A DNA stretch of 64,000 bases from Fibrobacterota bacterium (GTDB lineage Bacteria; Fibrobacterota; Fibrobacteria; UBA11236). The stretch spans positions 1-64,000 of the forward strand of contig JAQBPN010000130.1 in the NCBI GenBank assembly GCA_028287505.1, given 5' to 3'. This document shows positions 9,329 through 60,105 of this stretch, piece after piece. The stretch's first letter is position 1; every line of letters begins with the position of its first letter. A program made the translations under genes and the position numbers. The notes beneath the pieces were generated by a model. The model did no database searches and was not told where the DNA came from. It saw only the letters and a list, made by a program, of their open reading frames with translations.

Positions 9329-11083
9329 TCAGATCAGTTCCCGCAGCTTGTCTTTGATCACCGTTCCCAGGATCTTCATGCGCTCGGGTTCGCCCCGGGC
9401 CAGGGACTCGGCGAATTTGACGGCCTGATCGCTCTTGATCTTGGCGGGCATGGGGGGAGTGAAAGGATCCACCAACGCCTCGATGATCACGGGGCCATTG
9501 ACCGCAAAGGCCGCCTCCAGCACCGCCGCGCACTCACCCGGATCGGAAACGCTGAACCCGGTTCCGCCGCAAGCGTGGGCGAAGCCGGCGAAATCGATGG
9601 GCTGGAGATCGCATCCGTATTCGGGATTCCCCAGGAAGACCATCTGCTCCCATTTGATCTGCCCCAGGGTGTTGTTCTTGCAGATGATCACCTTGATGGG
9701 AAGGTTGTATTTGACCGCGGTGGCGAATTCCGCCATCAGCATGGAGAATCCTCCGTCCCCGACGAAGGCGACCACCTGGCGCTCCGGATAGGCTATCTGG
9801 GCGGCGATGGCGTACGGCAGCCCGCATGCCATGCTGGCCAGGTTCCCGGAAAGCGTGAGCTTCTGGCCGCGCTTGGCCTTGATATGGCGCGCGAACCAGG
9901 TGGTGATGGTGCCGCTGTCGCAGGCCACGATGGCGTCGTCCCGCAGGAGCTTGTCCGTTTCCCATGCCACCACCTGGGGCTTCATGGGCATGTCCCGGCG
10001 GGTCCCCCGTTCCTCCATCAGCTTCCACCACTCCTTCATTCCAGCCTGGGCCTTTTCCAGGAAACCCCGGTCGGCGTTCCGATGCAGATAAGGCAGGAGC
10101 AATCCCAGGGTGCGTTTGCAATCCCCCGCCAGACCCACCTCCGCGGGAAAACGCAAGGCGATGCGCTCGGGATCGATATCGATCTGGATGCCCCGGACTT
10201 TTCCCGGCTTGGGATAGAACTCGATATAGGGGAAAGACGTGCCCACTATCAGCAAGGTGTTGCATTCCGTCATCGCATCCTCGGAAGGGGCCGTGCCCAA
10301 AAGCCCGATGCCGCCGGTCGTGTACGGGCTGTCGTCCGGGACCGCGGCTTTGCCCAGCAAGGCCTTGACGATGGGCGCGCCCAGCATCTCGGCCGTTTGC
10401 TCCAGTTCATCGGCGGCGCCAAGCGCGCCCCGGCCGCACAGGATGGTGATTTTCCCGCCCTGGTTCAGGATCTCCGCCGCCCGCCGCAGATCGGCTTCCG
10501 CGGGCACGCCGGCGGATGCGGCGAAGGTCTCCACATTGTGCCCGGGCACGTTGCGTTTGGATCGCTCCGCGCCGGAAGTCTCCTCCTGCAGATCCACGGG
10601 GAAATTCAGATGCGAGACGCCCCTTTTTACCAAGGCGTTGCGGCAGGCGAGATGGGTCACGTTTTCCACGTGGGCCACGCCCATGACCCGGGCCGAGTAG
10701 ACGGCCACGTCCGTGAAAACGCGATCCAAATCGACGTCCTGCTGGGCGTGCGTATCGATCAGATCGTGGAAATGATGGCCCGTGATTGCGAGCACCGGCT
10801 GTCCGTCCATTTTGGCGTCGTACAATCCGTTCAGAAGATGGAGCCCGCCGGGCCCGGAGGTGGCCAGGCAGACGCCCAGCTTTCCGGTGAACTTGGCGTA
10901 GCCGCATGCCATGAAAGCCGCGGCCTCCTCGTGCCTCACCTGCACGAAGGCGACTTCCTCCCGCCTTTTCCGGAGCGCTTCCATTATTCCATTGATGCCG
11001 TCCCCGGGAAGGCCGAATACGACCTTCACGCCCCAATCGATGAGGATATCCACCATGATTTCCGCGGCGGTTTGCTTGGGCAT
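9329..11083 (-). CDS. poxB: ThDP-dependent pyruvate dehydrogenase (quinone) / pyruvate oxidase-like enzyme
   Basis: This 584-residue enzyme has the three-domain layout of the acetolactate synthase/pyruvate oxidase family. The N-terminal PYR domain has GLPGDGINGIMEAL and the activating Glu near residue 52 (VRHEEAAAFMACGYA). A central FAD-type domain follows, then a PP domain with the Mg/ThDP motif GDGGFSMLMAEF leading to KNNTLGQIKWEQM. The C-terminal LVDPFTPPMPAKIK stretch resembles PoxB rather than acetolactate synthase. PoxB oxidises pyruvate to acetate and CO2 and reduces ubiquinone or menaquinone, which fits its place beside a quinol oxidase operon. Other ThDP enzymes of the family cannot be fully excluded. 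Confidence 0.82.
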   Translation of the reverse strand: MPKQTAAEIMVDILIDWGVKVVFGLPGDGINGIMEALRKRREEVAFVQVRHEEAAAFMACGYAKFTGKLGVCLATSGPGGLHLLNGLYDAKMDGQPVLAITGHHFHDLIDTHAQQDVDLDRVFTDVAVYSARVMGVAHVENVTHLACRNALVKRGVSHLNFPVDLQEETSGAERSKRNVPGHNVETFAASAGVPAEADLRRAAEILNQGGKITILCGRGALGAADELEQTAEMLGAPIVKALLGKAAVPDDSPYTTGGIGLLGTAPSEDAMTECNTLLIVGTSFPYIEFYPKPGKVRGIQIDIDPERIALRFPAEVGLAGDCKRTLGLLLPYLHRNADRGFLEKAQAGMKEWWKLMEERGTRRDMPMKPQVVAWETDKLLRDDAIVACDSGTITTWFARHIKAKRGQKLTLSGNLASMACGLPYAIAAQIAYPERQVVAFVGDGGFSMLMAEFATAVKYNLPIKVIICKNNTLGQIKWEQMVFLGNPEYGCDLQPIDFAGFAHACGGTGFSVSDPGECAAVLEAAFAVNGPVIIEALVDPFTPPMPAKIKSDQAVKFAESLARGEPERMKILGTVIKDKLRELI

Positions 11084-11501: not shown

Positions 11502-13679
11502 ATGATCGTCATTCGCAAACAAGGTATCGCCGCGCCCTTCCGCGCGGCGTCGCCTGCCCGAGCGTGGGGCATTCTTTTCGCGGCCGTCCTGCTGGGGTTC
11601 GCCGGACACGTGCGGGCGCAGGCCCAGAAGCGTTGCGATTTGATCGTGAAGTCGACGCCCGGGGCCGGAACCGACAGCACCTGCCTGGATCTGGTTTCCC
11701 TGGCGAACGGCGGCACGGCCATCCAGACCGCGGGCAATGTCACGCGCATCAGCCGCACGGGCCTGAGATTCTGCAAGAACGCCTTCCAAGTGCAGACCGG
11801 GGCGGAAGCGGACGTCGTTTTCATCTTCGACAACAGCGGGAGCATGTTCGCCCAGCTGGCCTGGGTCGACCCTGCCACCAACGACACCACCTTCTACAAC
11901 GGGCCGGGCGGTTGCGCGGACAGGACGACTTCCGGGACGTTCACATTGCAGACGGCCAATGGGCCGCTCGTATGCGCCATGCTCAATTCCAACGCCGGGT
12001 GCCGGGACTATTCCGGCGACCCCTATGAAGTCCGCGCCCAGGTCATCAAGACCGCCATCGACTATATGGCCCGGACCTCGCCCACCTCCACCGCCGGAAT
12101 CACGGGATTCGCCCTCACCACCATGCACCCCCTGGCCCCCCTGCAGTTGAACGTCCCCGCCAACGTGGCCCAGGTCAAGGACAGCGCCTTGATCGACAGC
12201 GTGGGCAGCACGAATTACGGCCCGCCGCTGCGCCTTGCCTACGGCTGGCTCAGAAACCCGGCCGTGGTCAAAACGGCCAAACATGCCATCGTCTTCATCT
12301 CCGACGGCGCGCCCAACGACGGGGGACGCAATGGCTACCTGGCCATCGTGGATTCCACCATTCCCATCTTCAGCATTTTTCTCGGGCACACCAGCACGGC
12401 GGACACGGCCAACCTCAAGCAGCTTTCCGATCTCACCCATGGGACCTTCAACCGCGTGGATCCCAAGAACATCGCCGGCATCAACCAGGTGATGCAGTCC
12501 ATCATCCAGTCCCTGCTCCTGACCACCGTGCCACGCTCCATCGAGGTCACCAACACCTCGTTGGCGCCGCCGCAGATCAGCCGATCGACCAACCTGGTCC
12601 GGAACGCGGACAGCAGCATGAGCCTGTCCCTGGACAGCATCATCGGCCTAAGGCTGGGAAGCAATGACCTGCAGGTCAAGATCACCATGAACGACACCCT
12701 CACCCGCACCTATGCGGTCAAGGTGCAAGCGGACGGGCCCATCGCTCCGGCCTCCACTTCCGAAGTGACCTGTTACGATCCTCCCGTCCTGACCCTGCTG
12801 AACGCCCAAGGCAAGCCGGACACCGCCTACCTGTCCGGGACCGCCGACTATACGGTGAAGCTGACCAGGGCCACCAACGACCTCAGTAGCGTGCTGGTTA
12901 CCTCGGTATCCCGGGACTCCGCGCGGGGCCCGGCCTGGGGCGATGCCGAATCCGTCCTCCTCAACCTCGCGGGCGCGGGCAACACCTACCAGGGCGCCCA
13001 GCCCTTGAACGGCGGATCGGTAACTCCCACGGCCCACAATGGAACCCTGGAATCGGACGCCAGCGGAAAGGTGATCCTGAGTTGGGTGCATCCCCGGGAT
13101 CCCCGCGAGTTCGCGAACTACGAATTGCCCGGCCAGCGGATCCCGGTCATTCCGCCGTTCATAGAGGTGGAGCGCGTCCGCGACGTCACCAGGGGCGAGG
13201 TCATCGACGGGGCCATCCAGGATCCGGTGGTGGTCTACGGCGGGGCGAACCTGGTCCGGACCTCGCCGGACTCGGCGCATGTCACCTATGGCGGCTGCCT
13301 CTCCAATTGCACCACCGAGTCGATCCGCCTGGGGGACCCGGGAAAGATTCCCAGCTTCGTCTTCAAGACCGCCTCGCCCTTTTCCTATGCCGTGAAGATC
13401 TACGACAACCTGGGAAACTTCGTGAACGAATCCAACGGTTCCGTGGACGCGGCCAAATGGCTGACCATGCCCAGGAAAGGGGACTCGGTGGCGGTGGTGA
13501 TGAGCGTATTGCCCGTGGCCAGGAACGGCGCCATGGTCGGCAGCGGAGTCTATATCCTGCGGGCGATCATCAACGCCCAGGCGGGAGCCTCGCACAACGG
13601 CCTGGGCAACGAGACCCTCGTTCCCGCGGGCTCACGCATCATCCTGAACCGGTTCGGGTACCTGCGATCCAGCCGCTGA
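11502..13679 (+). CDS. Secreted von Willebrand factor A domain protein
   Basis: This 725-residue exported protein has a signal peptide (residues 1-40, ending HVRAQA). The VWA domain spans about residues 103-330 and has a full MIDAS motif, DNSGS at 110-114, with the further FISDGAPNDGG segment. A beta-rich region of unknown type follows. The last 120 residues look like a T9SS-type Ig-fold ending, with PFSYAVKIYDNLGNFV and a GVYILRAI strand. The protein is probably surface-attached and binds a partner through a metal ion. The ATG at 11502 was chosen because it precedes the signal peptide and follows GGGGG. Three hairpins begin at its stop codon. Confidence 0.85.
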   Translation: MIVIRKQGIAAPFRAASPARAWGILFAAVLLGFAGHVRAQAQKRCDLIVKSTPGAGTDSTCLDLVSLANGGTAIQTAGNVTRISRTGLRFCKNAFQVQTGAEADVVFIFDNSGSMFAQLAWVDPATNDTTFYNGPGGCADRTTSGTFTLQTANGPLVCAMLNSNAGCRDYSGDPYEVRAQVIKTAIDYMARTSPTSTAGITGFALTTMHPLAPLQLNVPANVAQVKDSALIDSVGSTNYGPPLRLAYGWLRNPAVVKTAKHAIVFISDGAPNDGGRNGYLAIVDSTIPIFSIFLGHTSTADTANLKQLSDLTHGTFNRVDPKNIAGINQVMQSIIQSLLLTTVPRSIEVTNTSLAPPQISRSTNLVRNADSSMSLSLDSIIGLRLGSNDLQVKITMNDTLTRTYAVKVQADGPIAPASTSEVTCYDPPVLTLLNAQGKPDTAYLSGTADYTVKLTRATNDLSSVLVTSVSRDSARGPAWGDAESVLLNLAGAGNTYQGAQPLNGGSVTPTAHNGTLESDASGKVILSWVHPRDPREFANYELPGQRIPVIPPFIEVERVRDVTRGEVIDGAIQDPVVVYGGANLVRTSPDSAHVTYGGCLSNCTTESIRLGDPGKIPSFVFKTASPFSYAVKIYDNLGNFVNESNGSVDAAKWLTMPRKGDSVAVVMSVLPVARNGAMVGSGVYILRAIINAQAGASHNGLGNETLVPAGSRIILNRFGYLRSSR

Positions 13680-52617: not shown

Positions 52618-54954
52618 TCAGAGGATCCCTTTTACCCCATAGGGCCACCAATTCCATTTCCCGGCCAGCTTCATGATGGCGGGAACCAATAGTATCCTGA
52701 TCAGGGTGGCATCGACAAGGACGGCGGTGGCCAATCCCAGCCCCAGCATCTGCACCATGATCATTTGCGAGAAGGCGAAGGCCCCGAAGACCGACGTCAT
52801 GATAAGCGCTGCGCTGGTGATTACCGGCCCCGTGGCGGCCAAGCCGTGCGCCACGGAATGGGTATTGTTCCCGGTCTCGAGGAAACGCTCCCGGATCCGG
52901 TTCAATAAAAAGACCTCATAGTCCATGCTCAACCCGAACAGGATGCAAAACAACATCAGCGGCACGTTCAAGGGGACCACCTGGGTGGCGCTTGGCGCTC
53001 CGAACAAGGCATGTCCATGGCCAAGTTGGAATACGAATACGACCACTCCGTATCCGGCCAGTACGGAAAGGGCATTCATAATCAAGGCCTTCATGGCGAT
53101 CAAAGGAGACCGGAAAAACAAAAGCAGGAATAGAAAGGTGACCGCCAGGACGAAGAATATGGCAGCGGGGTAGGCCCGGTACATGGCCCGATCAAAATCA
53201 TTGGTTTGCACGGCTTGTCCGCCGACCTCGATCTTGAGGCCTGTTTCCTTTGCCCACGGAGGCAACTCGCGGGCTATGCGCTTGGCTTCGTCCAGCGGGA
53301 TGTCCTGTTTCAGCTCCACTTGCATCAGGAGCGACTTACCGTCTTTGGCCAGGAATTTTTCCGTCACGAAAGGCATACCGTCCAGGGCGTCGGCGACATC
53401 GGAATAAATCGATAGATATTTGGCCAGCGGCCAATTGTCGGCCAAGTCGACCGGGCCGAAAATGTGGCCCACGGCGCGTTCGCCGCGTATCCGTTTGGAA
53501 AAAGCGAATAAGGCGGGTATCCGTTCCGAAGTAAGGATCGGTTCCCCGTTGGAAGTGGATAGGATGATGTTGATGGGTGAAAGCACGCCTTGCAGCCCCA
53601 TGTCGCGCAACATCGAAAAACCGCGGGTGAATTCCATTTTGGAGGGGATGAAAGGCCCTTCCGGGAATCCGAAACGGGAGTATCGGGCCGGATAGGACAG
53701 GACCGCCAACGCCGCCAAACCGACGATCACGGCAATCGGGGCTTTTCCGAGGACCCAATTGGACCAAGCCGTCCAGTGACGGCCGGGTCCGGGGCCTGCG
53801 AACTTGCGGGACCAGATCCCAGGCCAATCGACTATGGGTCCCAAGATGGACAACAAGGCGGGAAGGAAGGTGAGGGCCGCGCCAAGGGATACGAGCACTA
53901 CTATGCAACCGCCCCATCCGATTGAACGCGTCTCCATCACCGGCGTGAAAAGAAGCCCCGCCAGACCGATCATCACCGTGGCTCCACTATAAAAAATGGT
54001 CTTTCCGGCGATGGCGACGCTTTCCACCAGCGCTTCGTTCCGCATGAGGCGATTGAGGACGGCCGCTCCGGTTTGCGCGCGTTTCACGGCCATGATTTCA
54101 CGGTAGCGATGAATCAGAAGCAAGCTGTAGTCGATTCCCACGGCGAGGCCGATCATGCTGGCCGCGGTTTGCACAAGGTTGGATATGGGCCAATACCTGG
54201 CCATGATGGATACGGAGGCCATGCTTAATACCGTACTGAGAATCCCCAAAAGCAGGGGCAGGCCGGCCGCCACCAGGGATCCGAAAGTCACCAGCAGGAT
54301 CAGCAAGGTCAGGGGAATCATCCGTCTTTCGGCCTTGGCGGTTTCCCGGGCATTGAAAAGATTGAAATCGTAGGACAAAGCCGGACGGCCGGTCACGGCC
54401 CATTCAAAGGTCGTGTCTGCGCGTCGCAGGGGTTTCAGTATCCCATCCGCTACGTTCCGCACTATGGGAACGGCTTGCTCAGCGTCCCGGATGGATTCGG
54501 CCTTGAGGCCGATGAGGACTATTTCCCCCGTCCCCGGCGCGGGCAAGAGACGCTTATCGAGGATATTCGCCGGGGTCATGACAGTCGTAACCTGGCTCAG
54601 TCCCGAAAAATTCTTTTCAAGGGCCCGGAACACCACCGGTCCGGATGACTCTGAATCGACGGGCAGCGGGCTTCGATGCTTCAAGGTGAGGACCAGCAAT
54701 TGGGAATAGGGATTTTCGAAATCGGCCCGGATCAGGCTGTCCGCATGGAAGGAAGGGCTATGGGCTATCTCTCCGGATCCGCTGAGTAAATAAGAAGGCG
54801 CTTTCCGGGCCGTAGGGACGGCCAGCAAAATGAGGGCTGCCCACGCTCCAATCACCCACCACGGTCGGGAAACCACCTGCTCACCCAGGTATCGCGACCA
54901 GACCCAGGCTTTTTTCAGCCGCGGCCGCGTCTTCCGCGGGGCCCTTGTCAGCAT
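52618..54954 (-). CDS. MMPL/RND-family membrane transporter
   Basis: This 778-residue protein has two sets of six helices and two large extracytoplasmic loops, as in MMPL-type RND proteins. SSD-like helices carry GIDYSLLLIHRYREIM and SMDYEVFLLNRIRERF, the proton-relay type motifs of the MmpL/YdfJ group. These export lipids or hydrophobic compounds. It starts at the ATG overlapping the PHP-glycosyltransferase stop by seven bases; a longer frame exists but begins within that gene. The tight coupling suggests that it exports or flips the product of that enzyme. Confidence 0.9.
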   Translation of the reverse strand: MLTRAPRKTRPRLKKAWVWSRYLGEQVVSRPWWVIGAWAALILLAVPTARKAPSYLLSGSGEIAHSPSFHADSLIRADFENPYSQLLVLTLKHRSPLPVDSESSGPVVFRALEKNFSGLSQVTTVMTPANILDKRLLPAPGTGEIVLIGLKAESIRDAEQAVPIVRNVADGILKPLRRADTTFEWAVTGRPALSYDFNLFNARETAKAERRMIPLTLLILLVTFGSLVAAGLPLLLGILSTVLSMASVSIMARYWPISNLVQTAASMIGLAVGIDYSLLLIHRYREIMAVKRAQTGAAVLNRLMRNEALVESVAIAGKTIFYSGATVMIGLAGLLFTPVMETRSIGWGGCIVVLVSLGAALTFLPALLSILGPIVDWPGIWSRKFAGPGPGRHWTAWSNWVLGKAPIAVIVGLAALAVLSYPARYSRFGFPEGPFIPSKMEFTRGFSMLRDMGLQGVLSPINIILSTSNGEPILTSERIPALFAFSKRIRGERAVGHIFGPVDLADNWPLAKYLSIYSDVADALDGMPFVTEKFLAKDGKSLLMQVELKQDIPLDEAKRIARELPPWAKETGLKIEVGGQAVQTNDFDRAMYRAYPAAIFFVLAVTFLFLLLFFRSPLIAMKALIMNALSVLAGYGVVVFVFQLGHGHALFGAPSATQVVPLNVPLMLFCILFGLSMDYEVFLLNRIRERFLETGNNTHSVAHGLAATGPVITSAALIMTSVFGAFAFSQMIMVQMLGLGLATAVLVDATLIRILLVPAIMKLAGKWNWWPYGVKGIL

Positions 54955-57659
54955 GCGGACGTTTTCAAGGAGTTTTCCATATGGGATTCGCTCTTCACAT
55001 TTCCCGGTCGGGATTTCCCCTTCCCCTCCCCCAATCCGAGGTCCGACAGCAACTGCTTCAGGATGTCCTCGCGGCGATAGTCCCTTCCGCGCCGCAAAGC
55101 CTGGACGCGGCAATATTCCAACTTGTCCGGGTCCTGCAACAACAGCGAAATCCCCTCCTCGAAATCGGAAATGGTATTGGCCAGGAAGCCGCTTTTGCCG
55201 TTTTCAATGAGGTCCCTGGGCCCCTTGGTATCGTATGCGATAACCGGAAGGCCGCAGTTGAATGCTTCCAGAATCACGCAGCCGAAAGTGTCGAACCGGG
55301 AAGGCAACAATAGGATGTCCGCGGAAGAATACAGTCCGGGGAGGTCTTCGTGGGAGATCCAACCCAAATACCGGGCTTCCGGAAATTCCCGGCGAAGCCT
55401 CGCTTCCGCGGGGCCCGTTCCCGCCACCAGCATCTCCACGTCCGGAATGGCCGAACGCGCGCTTCTGAAGATGGCGGGCAGCTCAAAGACTCCCTTTTCT
55501 TCGCTCAACCGGCCCACGTAAAGGAGAATGGGCTTTTCCCGGAGATCGGGATATAAACGCTCCCGGGCCCCGCTTACGGGCCTGAAATGGCTCTCGGCCC
55601 AATGGGCGGTGGAGAAGACGCTCTCCTTGGGAAGGGACATTTCCGGGGACGATAGCCACTCCTTCTGTTCGCTATTGAGAACGAATACTCCGTCAAAAGC
55701 CTTATAGTACCTTTTGAGAATCTGTTGCAGGCGCCGCAAGTGTGCGTCCTTCCACTCCAAGGATCGCCTCGCGAAATCCATCCAATCCGTATGCAGGTAA
55801 CTGAAAGCGGGCACCCGGAAAGCGTGCTTGAGATACAGGCCGATCAACCCCATGGGCCCCTCGGTGGAACAGACCAATCGGTCGTAGGCGCCATTCCGGA
55901 AAAAACCTTGCATATCCAGGAGATCGGGGATGCGGAGATTCTGATCCCGGTAAACCGGAAGGGCGAATTCCGCCACCGGAGGGAGCACGATCAAATGGGC
56001 CTCGGATTCGATCGTGCTCGAGCAAATCGCGAAATCGATCGGCAGATCGTTTTTCTGGACCTCCTTGAGCATGGCGCCCAGCGCATGCGAGACCCCATTG
56101 CGATCTCCATAGGTGTCGGTAAGCCATAAGGCGCGAGGGGAGGGTTTCGGGTTCCGCAGGCGAGTCGCGAGTTCCTCAGAGAAGTCGATTTGATCGGAAA
56201 GGATCTTGTCGCCGGCGAAGGAGGCGCCCGCCAAGGCCGCGGCGCCCAGGAACGGGAACAGCAAGCCCTCCAGGCTCTTCGCCATGCCGCGGTCGGATGG
56301 GGACAGCCGGGCCGGTTTCCTGATACCGAAGAAGGTCCGGAGCCGGGAAGGTTGATCCAGCATGGAAACGCAGTCCTCGAACCGGATCGACTTCCAATCG
56401 GCATTGCTTTCCATGCTTCGATTGAGGCGCTGGCAGAAAATCCGGGAAAAACCCTTGTACAATAAGGGCAAAAGCTTCTCCAGTCGATCCATGTAGACCG
56501 AAACATCTCCATTGCGCGCCTTGGCGAGACCGGCGAGCTCCCGCACCATCGGCCGATACCGGGGCGGGGCGAAAACGCGGGCCAGGAGACCCGGGCCTTT
56601 GCCCAATAGGGAGGCATGCAAGAGCCCGACGAAGCGCACAATGCTCGGGCTTTGGCGCAGCTCGAAAAGGGCGTTGCCGATTCCCATCGCCATTCCCTTT
56701 TGCATCGCGTCGCCGGTATGGAGGAGGACGCCCAACAAACCCGGGTCCTCCATGTAAAGGACCGCCTGGCAGAAATAATCCAGGAATGCGAGAGCGAGCT
56801 TGTCTTCGCCGCGACCGCTGCCGAATGGGACCACGCGTCCCTCCCGCAAGGCTTCAAGAGCGAGTTGGGAACGCGGCTCCCTGCGGCCTTTCAATAGGGG
56901 GACATGCAGCAGGGTTCCCGTAGTGCCCGCGAAGATTCCCATATGGCAGTCCGAGCCTCCGGTGATGCGCTTGCGGAAAGGACTGCGGCAGAATGCATCC
57001 ACCGGAATGCCGCAGCGACGGGAAACCGCATCGAGAGTTTCGATATCCAGGCTCTGCACCCAATCCACGGTGAGCAGGTTGCTCCGGGTATCCCGTTGCC
57101 CGTTGATCCCCTCGAAACGTTCGAAAAGCAAGGCGAACCGATCCATGAGCGCGGGAGGAGGCATACCCGTGGGGCTATAGTAATGGAGCGGATGCGCCAG
57201 CACCGTGGGGATATTCTCCCGGCAGCAGTATTCCTGGAAGCGATAGACGTCCTTGCGCAATTCGTTCAGGCGCGCTTCTTGGGCGGGAGTGAAGCCGAAG
57301 GTAAGCACGTGCACCCCTACCTTCAGGTCCGGGAGCGTGCAACTGAATTCTGCCGCGACCAAAACATCGATCCCTTTATCTTGCAGAGCATAGCAGCTGC
57401 GGGCGTTGTTATGGTTCGTGATGGTCAGGACATCGCATTTCCTGGCGTTCAGGGTGGAAACTAGGGTTTCGGTGGGGAGCCACGTTTCGGGCATTCGCAA
57501 CATCCGTCCAAGGAGTTCTTCCGGTCGGTCACTGTTGAAGTCGTGGCAATGGAGATCAATCCGGAGGCTTTCGCCTGGCGGAAATTTCAGCTTTTGCCGC
57601 TCAAGAAAATCCTGCATCCGCGTCCAAAGCGAATCCCTGAATGAAGGAGCATCAGCCAT
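54948..57659 (-). CDS. PHP-domain and GT4 glycosyltransferase fusion protein
   Basis: This 903-residue cytoplasmic protein joins two domains. The N-terminal PHP metallo-hydrolase (about 30-275) has metal ligands in DLHCHDFN, TITNHNN, AAEFSC, AHPLHYY and GGSDCHMG. A helical middle region (about 290-480) with hydrophobic stretches comes next. The GT4-type transferase (about 500-890) has LLYVGRLSEEKG, FDTFGCVILEAFNCGLPVIAYD and a KGPRDLI segment, as in mannosyl- and glucosyltransferases of glycolipids. Its likely role is making a glycosylated lipid or polysaccharide. GGGAG precedes the ATG at 57659. It is coupled to the MMPL gene. Confidence 0.88.
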   Translation of the reverse strand: MADAPSFRDSLWTRMQDFLERQKLKFPPGESLRIDLHCHDFNSDRPEELLGRMLRMPETWLPTETLVSTLNARKCDVLTITNHNNARSCYALQDKGIDVLVAAEFSCTLPDLKVGVHVLTFGFTPAQEARLNELRKDVYRFQEYCCRENIPTVLAHPLHYYSPTGMPPPALMDRFALLFERFEGINGQRDTRSNLLTVDWVQSLDIETLDAVSRRCGIPVDAFCRSPFRKRITGGSDCHMGIFAGTTGTLLHVPLLKGRREPRSQLALEALREGRVVPFGSGRGEDKLALAFLDYFCQAVLYMEDPGLLGVLLHTGDAMQKGMAMGIGNALFELRQSPSIVRFVGLLHASLLGKGPGLLARVFAPPRYRPMVRELAGLAKARNGDVSVYMDRLEKLLPLLYKGFSRIFCQRLNRSMESNADWKSIRFEDCVSMLDQPSRLRTFFGIRKPARLSPSDRGMAKSLEGLLFPFLGAAALAGASFAGDKILSDQIDFSEELATRLRNPKPSPRALWLTDTYGDRNGVSHALGAMLKEVQKNDLPIDFAICSSTIESEAHLIVLPPVAEFALPVYRDQNLRIPDLLDMQGFFRNGAYDRLVCSTEGPMGLIGLYLKHAFRVPAFSYLHTDWMDFARRSLEWKDAHLRRLQQILKRYYKAFDGVFVLNSEQKEWLSSPEMSLPKESVFSTAHWAESHFRPVSGARERLYPDLREKPILLYVGRLSEEKGVFELPAIFRSARSAIPDVEMLVAGTGPAEARLRREFPEARYLGWISHEDLPGLYSSADILLLPSRFDTFGCVILEAFNCGLPVIAYDTKGPRDLIENGKSGFLANTISDFEEGISLLLQDPDKLEYCRVQALRRGRDYRREDILKQLLSDLGLGEGKGKSRPGNVKSESHMENSLKTSAC

Positions 57660-57965: not shown

Positions 57966-58622
57966 ATGCTGCGGATAGCGACCCTCCTCCTGGGGCTCGG
58001 CCTTTGGGCGTGCAATAACCCGGTTCCCCTGGAACCGTCTCTCTCAAGCCGGACGGGGACGGCCCCCACCGGTTCCAACTGCGCCGGGTGCCACGCCTAT
58101 CCGGTCGGCGGCGTCAACCATCAATTCCACCTGATGCATGCCGACAGCCTAAAGACCGGGAACGGTCCAATCACCTGCCTGGATTGCCATTGCAAAACCC
58201 TCGTCGAGCGGGACCAGACCATTTTCGATTCGATCTATGCGATTGGCGGCGGCAAATCCGTTTCCGCCTATGACTCCGCATCCAGCGCGGGATTCCGCTC
58301 CGCGGTGGGAAGCGGGCAATACAACCTGATCCGCGTGGACACCCTGGTCCACCATCGACCTGTTCCCCTTCCCGGACCGGCGGACCGGGTGACGTTCCTG
58401 CAGGAGTGGATGACCGGCGTGGATCATCTCAACGGAATCATGGACGTGAAATTCGATCCCGCGAACAGCGATCCCGCACGGTACAATTCCAAAACCGCCG
58501 TTTTCGATCCGGTCATGGAAACCTGCTCGGCGGTGGCGTGCCATGTCCACAGCACTCCTTATCGCTGGCCCGCGCCGTCCAAAGGTCTTACCGGCCTCAA
58601 TGTCAATGCGAGTCTCAAATGA
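57966..58622 (+). CDS. Trihaem cytochrome c lipoprotein (two CxxCH and one CxxxxCH)
   Basis: This 218-residue lipoprotein has a lipobox LWAC (Cys16) and three haem motifs: CAGCH at 39-43, CLDCH at 71-75 and CSAVACH at 187-193. The last is a CX4CH site of the kind seen with CxxCH in Geobacter-type multihaem proteins. His-rich stretches (HQFHLMH, LVHHRP, GVDHLNG) can supply axial ligands. It is the first gene of an operon with DUF4266 and DUF3570 proteins, its stop overlapping the next start. An extracytoplasmic electron-transfer role is likely. The ATG at 57966 is chosen for its signal peptide; no strong ribosome site is present. Confidence 0.86.
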   Translation: MLRIATLLLGLGLWACNNPVPLEPSLSSRTGTAPTGSNCAGCHAYPVGGVNHQFHLMHADSLKTGNGPITCLDCHCKTLVERDQTIFDSIYAIGGGKSVSAYDSASSAGFRSAVGSGQYNLIRVDTLVHHRPVPLPGPADRVTFLQEWMTGVDHLNGIMDVKFDPANSDPARYNSKTAVFDPVMETCSAVACHVHSTPYRWPAPSKGLTGLNVNASLK

Positions 58623-58834
58623 AGGCGGCCTTTTTCCTCCTGTCCCTGACGATTGCCCTCTTGGCCCTTTCGGGATGCGCCCGGGTCCACCAGAAGGATC
58701 GCGAATTCCTGAGCGACCCTATCATGCAGCGATCGACCGACCCCATGGCCGATGGAATGGAAAGCCATAATCTCCCCCGCCGGGAAGGGGCGGTGGGCGG
58801 GTCCAGCGGCTCTGGCGGCGGCTGCGGATGCTGA
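58619..58834 (+). CDS. DUF4266 lipoprotein
   Basis: This 71-residue protein has a lipobox (LSGC, Cys20) and the DUF4266 pattern: CARVHQKDREFLSDPIM, a DPMADGMESH middle, and a glycine-rich end closing in GGGCGC. DUF4266 proteins are usually encoded beside DUF3570 proteins. It overlaps the cytochrome stop by four bases and the DUF3570 start by seven. No function is established, but the context is extracytosolic redox. Confidence 0.88.
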   Translation: MKAAFFLLSLTIALLALSGCARVHQKDREFLSDPIMQRSTDPMADGMESHNLPRREGAVGGSSGSGGGCGC

Positions 58835-60105
58835 GGCCGGGCCGCAGGACGGCGCGGACGCTGGCGGCGTTGCTTTGTGCGGTGCTGATGGCCTCGCTCT
58901 CCGTCCGCACCGCAACCGGCGAAGGCTCCGGGGATTACCTCGATTTCAAATACATGTATTATTGGGATCGCAACGGCGTATGGAACCACACTCCCGCCTT
59001 CGATTGGCTCACCTTCCTCTCGCCGGCCTGGAGCTTCAAATGGTCCCAGGAATTCGATGTCGTTTCCGGCGCTTCCCGCAGGATAGGCTCCGACAACACC
59101 GGTAAGCTCGGCGATCACGGCGTGGACGCCACCAGCGGGGCTTCCAAGCGGACGACCACCGGCACGCCCTTCGCGAATCCCTGGAAGGATCCGGCTTTCG
59201 ACGCGGTCAGCGGCGCGTCCAAACGGGAAATCCGCCTTTCGGAAAACCCCGGTCTCACCTACTCGAAAAACGGGTCCGTCTACTCCGGAGGCATCTACTA
59301 CAGCGATGAGCCGGATTACCGGTCCTTCTCCCCTTCCCTGACCCTCAGCCGCGACTTCAACGAAAGGAACACCACGCTCAGCGCAAGCGGCGCCTGGTTC
59401 TTCGACGATTTCCATCCGCAAGGCGCCTACTCGGATCAGGGAGGCGGCAAGCAAATCCGTTCCCTTACGCTCTCCGCCAACCAGATCCTGACTCCGCTCA
59501 CCATGCTTTCCCTGACCGCGACGGGGATTTACGCCAACGGATACCTTGGTCATCCCTATAATCCGGTTATCTTGGATTCCGGTTTCCTGATCGAGGAGCG
59601 GGTGCCCGGGGACAAGACCAGCTGGGCGGTCGCCGCCCAACTGGTCCAGGGATATCGCTTGGGCGGGACGCTCGGATCCTTCCACTTGCAATACCGTCAT
59701 TACATGGACAGCTGGGACCTGATCGCGGACGATGCCGAGCTCCAATGGTATCAGTACTTCGGAGGGAGCGCCTATGTACGGCTGCGGGCGAGGGGATACG
59801 CACAGGGAGCCACGGCCTTTTACAAGGACCACTACGTCGGGGACGAATCGTATCGATCCGTCGACCTGCGCTATTCCCAATTCAAATCCCTGCTTCTGGG
59901 GATCAAGGTTTCCGCTCCGCTCTTCGCGGAATGGGAAGACAGCCCCTTGCTGCCCGATCGGTTCGACCTGAGTTACGATTTCGGGATCCGGGATACTTAC
60001 GGGGATCAAGGGACGGACCGGCCCTTCGCCCATTACCAGCTTTTTCCGAGCTCGGAGAACTATACCGAAGGGACGATCTTCGTCGGCCTGGGATTCGATT
60101 TGTAA
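58828..60105 (+). CDS. DUF3570 outer membrane protein with three DxxSGAS motifs
   Basis: This 425-residue protein has a signal peptide and an amphipathic beta-strand pattern over most of its length, ending in an aromatic-rich FVGLGFDL, as outer membrane barrels do. It belongs to DUF3570. Three copies of a short motif lie near the N-terminus: DVVSGAS (77-83), DATSGAS (100-106) and DAVSGAS (125-131). These match the ApbE flavinylation consensus D-x-x-[ST]-G-A-[ST], in which the last residue takes FMN. No apbE gene lies in the window. With the trihaem cytochrome and DUF4266 lipoprotein it could form an electron path across the outer membrane. Confidence 0.87.
   Translation: MLRPGRRTARTLAALLCAVLMASLSVRTATGEGSGDYLDFKYMYYWDRNGVWNHTPAFDWLTFLSPAWSFKWSQEFDVVSGASRRIGSDNTGKLGDHGVDATSGASKRTTTGTPFANPWKDPAFDAVSGASKREIRLSENPGLTYSKNGSVYSGGIYYSDEPDYRSFSPSLTLSRDFNERNTTLSASGAWFFDDFHPQGAYSDQGGGKQIRSLTLSANQILTPLTMLSLTATGIYANGYLGHPYNPVILDSGFLIEERVPGDKTSWAVAAQLVQGYRLGGTLGSFHLQYRHYMDSWDLIADDAELQWYQYFGGSAYVRLRARGYAQGATAFYKDHYVGDESYRSVDLRYSQFKSLLLGIKVSAPLFAEWEDSPLLPDRFDLSYDFGIRDTYGDQGTDRPFAHYQLFPSSENYTEGTIFVGLGFDL

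Follow-up and report, generated by a model that had tools for sequence, protein, structure and literature searches.

The locus described here raises the question of whether a DUF3570 protein encoded together with a haem lipoprotein carries covalent flavin and, if so, whether flavin and haem together move electrons at the outer membrane. DUF3570 proteins are known ApbE substrates, and their function and the location of their flavins are the questions on which such cassettes bear. The cassette was found in the window, by which we mean the whole 64,000-nucleotide stretch of DNA that was analysed (contig C47 of a Fibrobacterota assembly of 6.07 Mb that is 98.7% complete). It is an overlapping set of three genes at 57966-60105 of the plus strand, and the open reading frames, their coordinates and their translational coupling were as an earlier note made from the sequence had given them.

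57966..58622, plus strand: gene of a trihaem c-type lipoprotein (218 aa, lipobox LWAC16)
58619..58834, plus strand: gene of a DUF4266 lipoprotein (71 aa, ending in GGGCGC; Pfam PF14086, E=2.5e-13)
58828..60105, plus strand: gene of a predicted DUF3570 outer-membrane beta-barrel protein (425 aa; PF12094, E=1.7e-39)

The trihaem and DUF4266 genes overlap by 4 bp (ATGA) and the DUF4266 and DUF3570 genes by 7 bp (ATGCTGA). PF12094 is the sole Pfam match of the DUF3570 protein (136 bits against a cut-off of 25), and the terminal CGC of the DUF4266 protein is kept in 35 of 35 aligned homologues. A promoter and terminator scan gave no signal above chance, and thioredoxin-like and DsbD genes are absent from the window. 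A minus-strand ORF of 903 aa (54948-57659) has the look of a fusion between a PHP-type hydrolase and a glycosyltransferase.

The tie of DUF3570 and DUF4266 to flavinylation, which the earlier note had assumed, is published and is experimental for a homologue. The main text of Meheust et al. (2021, PMC8238504) reports that the DUF3570 protein of Chlorobium luteolum receives flavin from its ApbE at the serines of two [S/T]GA[S/T] sites, and that DUF3570 clusters typically contain DsbD, a thioredoxin-like protein, DUF4266 with its terminal CxC, and ApbE. The DUF3570-flavin link itself is hence not new. According to a 2025 review, the minimal tag for ApbE is the seven-residue DxxSGAS/T, which is sufficient alone (PMC12052999). 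The DUF3570 protein of the window has exactly three DxxSGAS motifs, at the positions that had been noted earlier.

59056..59076, plus strand: motif 1, DVVSGAS, residues 77-83; candidate FMN-Ser83, a canonical motif that aligns with site 1 of the homologues
59125..59145, plus strand: motif 2, DATSGAS, residues 100-106; candidate FMN-Ser106, an extra site in an insertion
59200..59220, plus strand: motif 3, DAVSGAS, residues 125-131; candidate FMN-Ser131, a canonical site

No other ORF of at least 60 aa in the window has a DxxSGAS motif. Chance origin of the three motifs was ruled out by shuffling of the protein: among 100,000 shuffles one motif arose in 713, two in 3 and three in none. The motifs differ in their codons, including TCC versus AGC serines, and thus are not a fresh DNA duplication; recent tandem duplication of the motif was rejected on this ground.

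Comparison with homologues separated the middle motif from the other two. The DUF3570 homologues that adjoin ApbE and have a readable motif region carry two sites at the same place (one copy has a single exact motif). These two canonical sites precede a conserved S-x-E-x-D-Y strand, they correspond to window motifs 1 and 3, and both are kept in nearly all trihaem-linked copies of the genus. D125, G129, A130 and S131 of motif 3 are invariant in the six paralogues of this genome. The motif 2 insertion is common to a single small orthologue group comprising the window copy, L098 and L108 (tree support 100/100), and three sites are therefore not the rule of the family; within the group the motif is intact in the window and L108 and reads SGSS in L098. 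Three motifs are also present in the DUF3570 proteins of genomes G165 and G044. Conservation of the motifs, on which the earlier note had staked its flavinylation reading, thus held for sites 1 and 3 in nearly all readable ApbE-adjoining copies and failed for the middle motif, which is confined to the insertion. Distant homologues from Myxococcota have TSAS or TAAS at the motif positions and keep DUF4266. In another ApbE substrate, replacing G by A lowered flavinylation without abolishing it (PMC12052999), and so the TSAS and TAAS sites may not be inactive. From these sequences we infer that Ser83 and Ser131 would carry FMN in the window protein, and Ser106 is probably an FMN site as well.

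The enzyme needed for this modification is encoded at a distance. The earlier note had seen no apbE nearby and had placed the modifying enzyme elsewhere. The absence holds within the window, and a genome search found one unlinked apbE, on contig C126 (PF02424, E=5.1e-61, with the usual ApbE motifs); as this is the single good copy in the genome, a genome devoid of apbE was rejected. Searches of the genome for FMN_bind (PF04205) and DUF2271 proteins found none of either, which rejects the idea that ApbE is occupied by these other known substrate families. Just downstream of this apbE is a gene for a DHOR-type dihaem oxidoreductase (L020:8861-10489); no such gene was found at the other apbE loci of the genus examined.

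The genome has six DUF3570 genes (the window copy on C47, one on C24, two on C70 and one each on C58 and C90), and a DUF4266 gene lies near each of them. There are also six trihaem genes, and four of the six DUF3570 genes are preceded by one. The complete form is that on C90, in which the gene order is trihaem, DUF4266, DUF3570, thioredoxin, DsbD, fn3-like, NusG_II and Hpre_diP_synt_I. A thioredoxin gene is also present at the C70 and C24 loci, and two DsbD genes were found in the genome. The window copy is the short form, and other loci could provide in trans the functions that it lacks. The NusG_II and Hpre_diP_synt_I (Gx transporter-like) genes adjoin complete DUF3570 clusters (L019:5752-7300, minus strand; L114:10275-11453), and are possible flavin supply or electron-entry parts. 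No DUF3570 match was found in plasmid records.

The lipoprotein at the head of the cassette has two CxxCH sites and one CxxxxCH site.

58080..58094, plus strand: haem site 1, CAGCH, residues 39-43; Cys and His invariant in 27 rows
58176..58190, plus strand: haem site 2, CLDCH, residues 71-75; Cys and His invariant in 27 rows
58524..58544, plus strand: haem site 3, CSAVACH, residues 187-193; Cys and His invariant in 27 rows

Across the 27 trihaem homologues the lipobox Cys16, every haem Cys and His, and H52, H55 and H154 are 100% conserved, and no further His is invariant. Of the six invariant His residues, three would be proximal ligands and the other three are candidates for the distal position, and thus the protein probably binds three bis-His haems. 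The window protein matched no Pfam family. The TIGR01904 CxxxxCH/CxxCH domain, known from Geobacter cytochromes, scored 20 bits on it, below the cut-off of 27, and exceeded the cut-off in two C70 paralogues; in the trihaem family the likeness covers only the region of the third haem, and the remainder has no family match above cut-off. The structure model of the protein (pLDDT 35.8) was unusable. Some extra trihaem genes pair with a CarboxypepD_reg/SdrD-like protein rather than with DUF4266 and DUF3570 (L108:3015-4878, L125 and L126).

That the haem lipoprotein is tied to DUF3570, as had been proposed from the window, was borne out by comparison of loci among Fibrobacterota relatives, in which it is a conserved partner. 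Profile searches for DUF3570, trihaem and ApbE proteins were run on 168 genomes of the phylum. DUF3570 was found in 13 of these, and the trihaem profile matched in 10 of the 13 against 0 of the 155 others (Fisher p=7.6e-14, relatedness ignored). ApbE was present in 50 of the 168 genomes, 11 of the 13 with DUF3570 and 39 of the 155 others (Fisher p=3.2e-5, relatedness ignored). In G162, of genus g2, a single locus holds trihaem-DUF4266-DUF3570-thioredoxin-DsbD-fn3-ApbE, and its congeners G160, G161 and G163 are without DUF3570, trihaem and ApbE. G157, which belongs to the genus of the window genome and is assembled in 340 contigs, has DUF3570 with intact motifs, and no apbE was found in it. Outside the phylum, a haem partner as a general feature of DUF3570 was rejected. 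Thirty loci from Myxococcota (the phylum of L024) mostly have the order thioredoxin-DUF4266-DUF3570-ApbE or just DUF4266-DUF3570, and no convincing haem protein was seen within ~1.5 kb of them; the DUF3570 family therefore does not need haem. Three Myxococcota DUF3570 ORFs (L145, L146 and L147) run to ~856-978 aa, double the common size, carry two DxxSGAT motifs and are possible fusions.

An AlphaFold2 model of the DUF3570 protein was built from nine sequences (pLDDT 71.6, pTM 0.68) and has 16 long strands, many with pLDDT >90. The top Foldseek matches were outer-membrane barrels (PelB, FepA, BamA, porins and an Mtr barrel). No specific structural relative emerged, the matches being to generic outer-membrane barrels with TMq of at most 0.48. 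The barrel-like character read from the sequence thus became a predicted 16-strand outer-membrane barrel. All three candidate modified serines fall in one loop of the model.

59065..59226, plus strand: predicted loop (residues 80-133) that connects strands 3 and 4 and holds the candidate modified serines of all three motifs

Residues 82-131, which take in all of motifs 2 and 3 and, from motif 1, the candidate serine, are disordered in the model (pLDDT <50) and are flanked by strands 68-79 and 134-147. The connections from odd to even strands are long, and those from even to odd strands are mostly short turns. The long-loop side of an outer-membrane barrel is by convention extracellular. The motif loop is on this side, which under the usual rule would put it at the outer face or folded into the lumen; the model, with very low confidence in the loop itself, suggests one of these two positions for the flavins.

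ApbE is a periplasmic enzyme, and it tags proteins most completely at their termini and less so in a surface loop (PMC12052999). If the loop lies on the outer side, modification must precede insertion of the barrel. When C. luteolum DUF3570 and ApbE were co-expressed, the protein was mostly in the insoluble pellet and was still flavinylated when purified in guanidine, according to the main text of PMC8238504. Recovery of flavinylated protein from a pellet is consistent with modification of un-inserted protein.

How far the cassette resembles systems already described can be stated gene by gene. With the ApbE-flavinylated DUF3570 'DsbD system', as the main text of PMC8238504 presents it, the window cassette shares PF12094, two canonical sites and an adjoining DUF4266 with a terminal CxC; the thioredoxin-like protein, DsbD and ApbE of that system are found here in sister loci, and in one locus in G162. 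ApbE belongs to the same cluster in the published cases, whereas that of the window genome is on C126. Linkage is what defines those clusters there, so the window copy counts as a dispersed paralogue of one and does not itself form such a cluster. Unlike that system, the window cassette has a trihaem CxxxxCH lipoprotein gene at its head, its genome has six paralogous copies sharing one ApbE, and in its DUF3570 protein an insertion adds a third motif; the main-text treatment of DUF3570, DUF4266 and cytochromes in PMC8238504 mentions none of the three features. The trihaem lipoprotein is the new element of an otherwise published flavinylation system. As in porin-cytochrome conduits (MtrCAB), the outer membrane would hold both a barrel and a c-type haem protein. 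Among the Foldseek matches the Mtr complex barrel (6r2q_B) ranked 28th (E=3.4e-4), a match to the generic outer-membrane barrel fold, and no sequence relation of the DUF3570 barrel to MtrB was seen (Pfam gave PF12094 only). In contrast to the decahaem wire of MtrCAB, there are three haems here, and the barrel itself would carry cofactors. The protein also resembles the multi-flavinylated FMN_bind proteins in having several covalent FMN sites, here predicted, on one extracytosolic protein, although those proteins (PMC8238504; PMC10339131) carry folded FMN_bind domains, whereas the sites here are in one disordered barrel loop.

The DUF4266/DUF3570 pair recurs with varying neighbours. Five genomes of the genus have C24-type loci in which thioredoxin-DUF4266-DUF3570 is accompanied by a dihaem protein with a hydrazine synthase alpha (HZS-alpha) domain. 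In L016 (11107-13344, minus strand) this protein is lipoprotein-like, with two CxxCH sites and the HZS-alpha middle domain (PF18582, E=3.9e-20), and orthologues are present in L107, L111, L102 and L103. The C58-type locus (L018:7749-10730; L113/L026) has DUF4266, a weakly matched beta-propeller (YNCE-like) protein and then a one-motif DUF3570, which groups in the tree with Myxococcota sequences on long branches. In G157 (L106:2737-8509, minus strand) genes for a GSDH-type dehydrogenase (PQQ sugar dehydrogenase-like), an FAD oxidoreductase, trihaem, DUF4266 and DUF3570 lie on the same strand and overlap from the FAD oxidoreductase onward. At C70-type loci there are genes for between one and four secreted proteins that are predicted to begin, once mature, with His.

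L017:9194-9880, 10085-10798 and 11683-12363, minus strand: N-terminal-His proteins, present also in L112, L104, L109 and L101

These proteins are of ~230 aa, with a signal peptide ending in A or G and His immediately after it, a second conserved His ~30 residues on, a sub-threshold Kre9/KNH- or Reelin-like Ig domain and a FlgD-Ig-like tail. Of the 14 full-length homologues listed from the 168 genomes, 13 are encoded no more than ~6 kb from a trihaem-DUF4266-DUF3570 cassette. Both His residues are present in 12 of 13 aligned rows and are lost together in the other (L101:7489-8166). The match to CopC is very weak (E=0.34), and no such gene is present at the window copy. Judging from the two histidines, the N-terminal-His proteins may bind copper through a histidine brace. 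A speculative and rather doubtful extension is that the haem/flavin barrel works in this genus as a general redox module of the outer membrane that can take different partners, its C70-type copies serving these putative copper-histidine-brace proteins.

The reading we favour, with modest confidence, is that the cassette represents the ApbE-flavinylated DUF3570 system in a haem-paired form, in which a barrel matured in trans exchanges electrons between haem and flavin so as to reach or cross the outer membrane. The DUF3570 protein would be exported and FMN linked as a phosphoester to Ser83, Ser131 and probably Ser106 by the single C126-encoded ApbE, most likely on the unfolded periplasmic protein, which would then insert as a 16-strand barrel. 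Its flavins would sit on one flexible loop, either at the outer mouth, on the long-loop side, or tucked into the lumen, and the co-made trihaem and DUF4266 CxC lipoproteins would exchange electrons with them, electrons thereby reaching or crossing the outer membrane. The thioredoxin/DsbD functions would come from the C90 cluster. A DsbD/thioredoxin source slightly favours the outward (reductive) direction. Note that a periplasmic haem protein and an outer-loop flavin would need a path through the lumen, and this path is hypothetical. It is also possible, and distinctly less probable, that electrons run from an oxidising surface or periplasmic enzyme to the trihaem protein and on to the flavin barrel as a sink, DUF3570/DUF4266 being a general module with interchangeable partners. 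The dehydrogenase genes preceding the cassette in G157 and the HZS-alpha-domain proteins at C24-type loci would fit such a sink, but the dehydrogenase is a single example and no such partner gene adjoins the window copy.

Alternatively, the barrel could merely anchor a redox hub in the outer membrane, with the flavin loop facing the periplasm and electrons passing from DsbD/thioredoxin to DUF4266 and flavin and then to the trihaem protein for reductions of metal or peroxide or in cytochrome maintenance, never crossing. The clustering of thioredoxin and DsbD in G162 and on C90, the periplasmic location of ApbE and the CxC end of DUF4266 point this way; as the modelled motif loop is placed with the other long loops, opposite the short periplasmic-type turns, we think a hub of this kind rather unlikely. 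That the motifs are relics, the single ApbE serving another protein, is very improbable. Some DUF3570 proteins with TSAS or TAAS retain DUF4266, apbE is unlinked, and none was found in G157, as relics would allow, but motifs 1 and 3 persist in nearly all trihaem-linked copies of the genus, the three window motifs differ in codons, and the genome lacks the FMN_bind and DUF2271 substrates. The flavinylation and conduit interpretation of the earlier note is thus partly supported.

The genus provides a natural series of these proteins in which the number of flavin sites ranges from one to three, a trihaem partner is present or absent, and the neighbours include thioredoxin/DsbD, the HZS-alpha-domain dihaem protein, a sugar dehydrogenase-like gene and the N-terminal-His proteins. 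If the copper proposal is true, flavin and haem would deliver electrons to (or from) a mononuclear copper at the surface, in a cell-wired monooxygenase-like or copper-handling system. As all flavins are predicted to share a single long loop of this outer-membrane barrel, their location is directly testable, and should the haem-flavin relay cross the membrane, the conduit would differ in design from the decahaem porin-cytochrome complexes.
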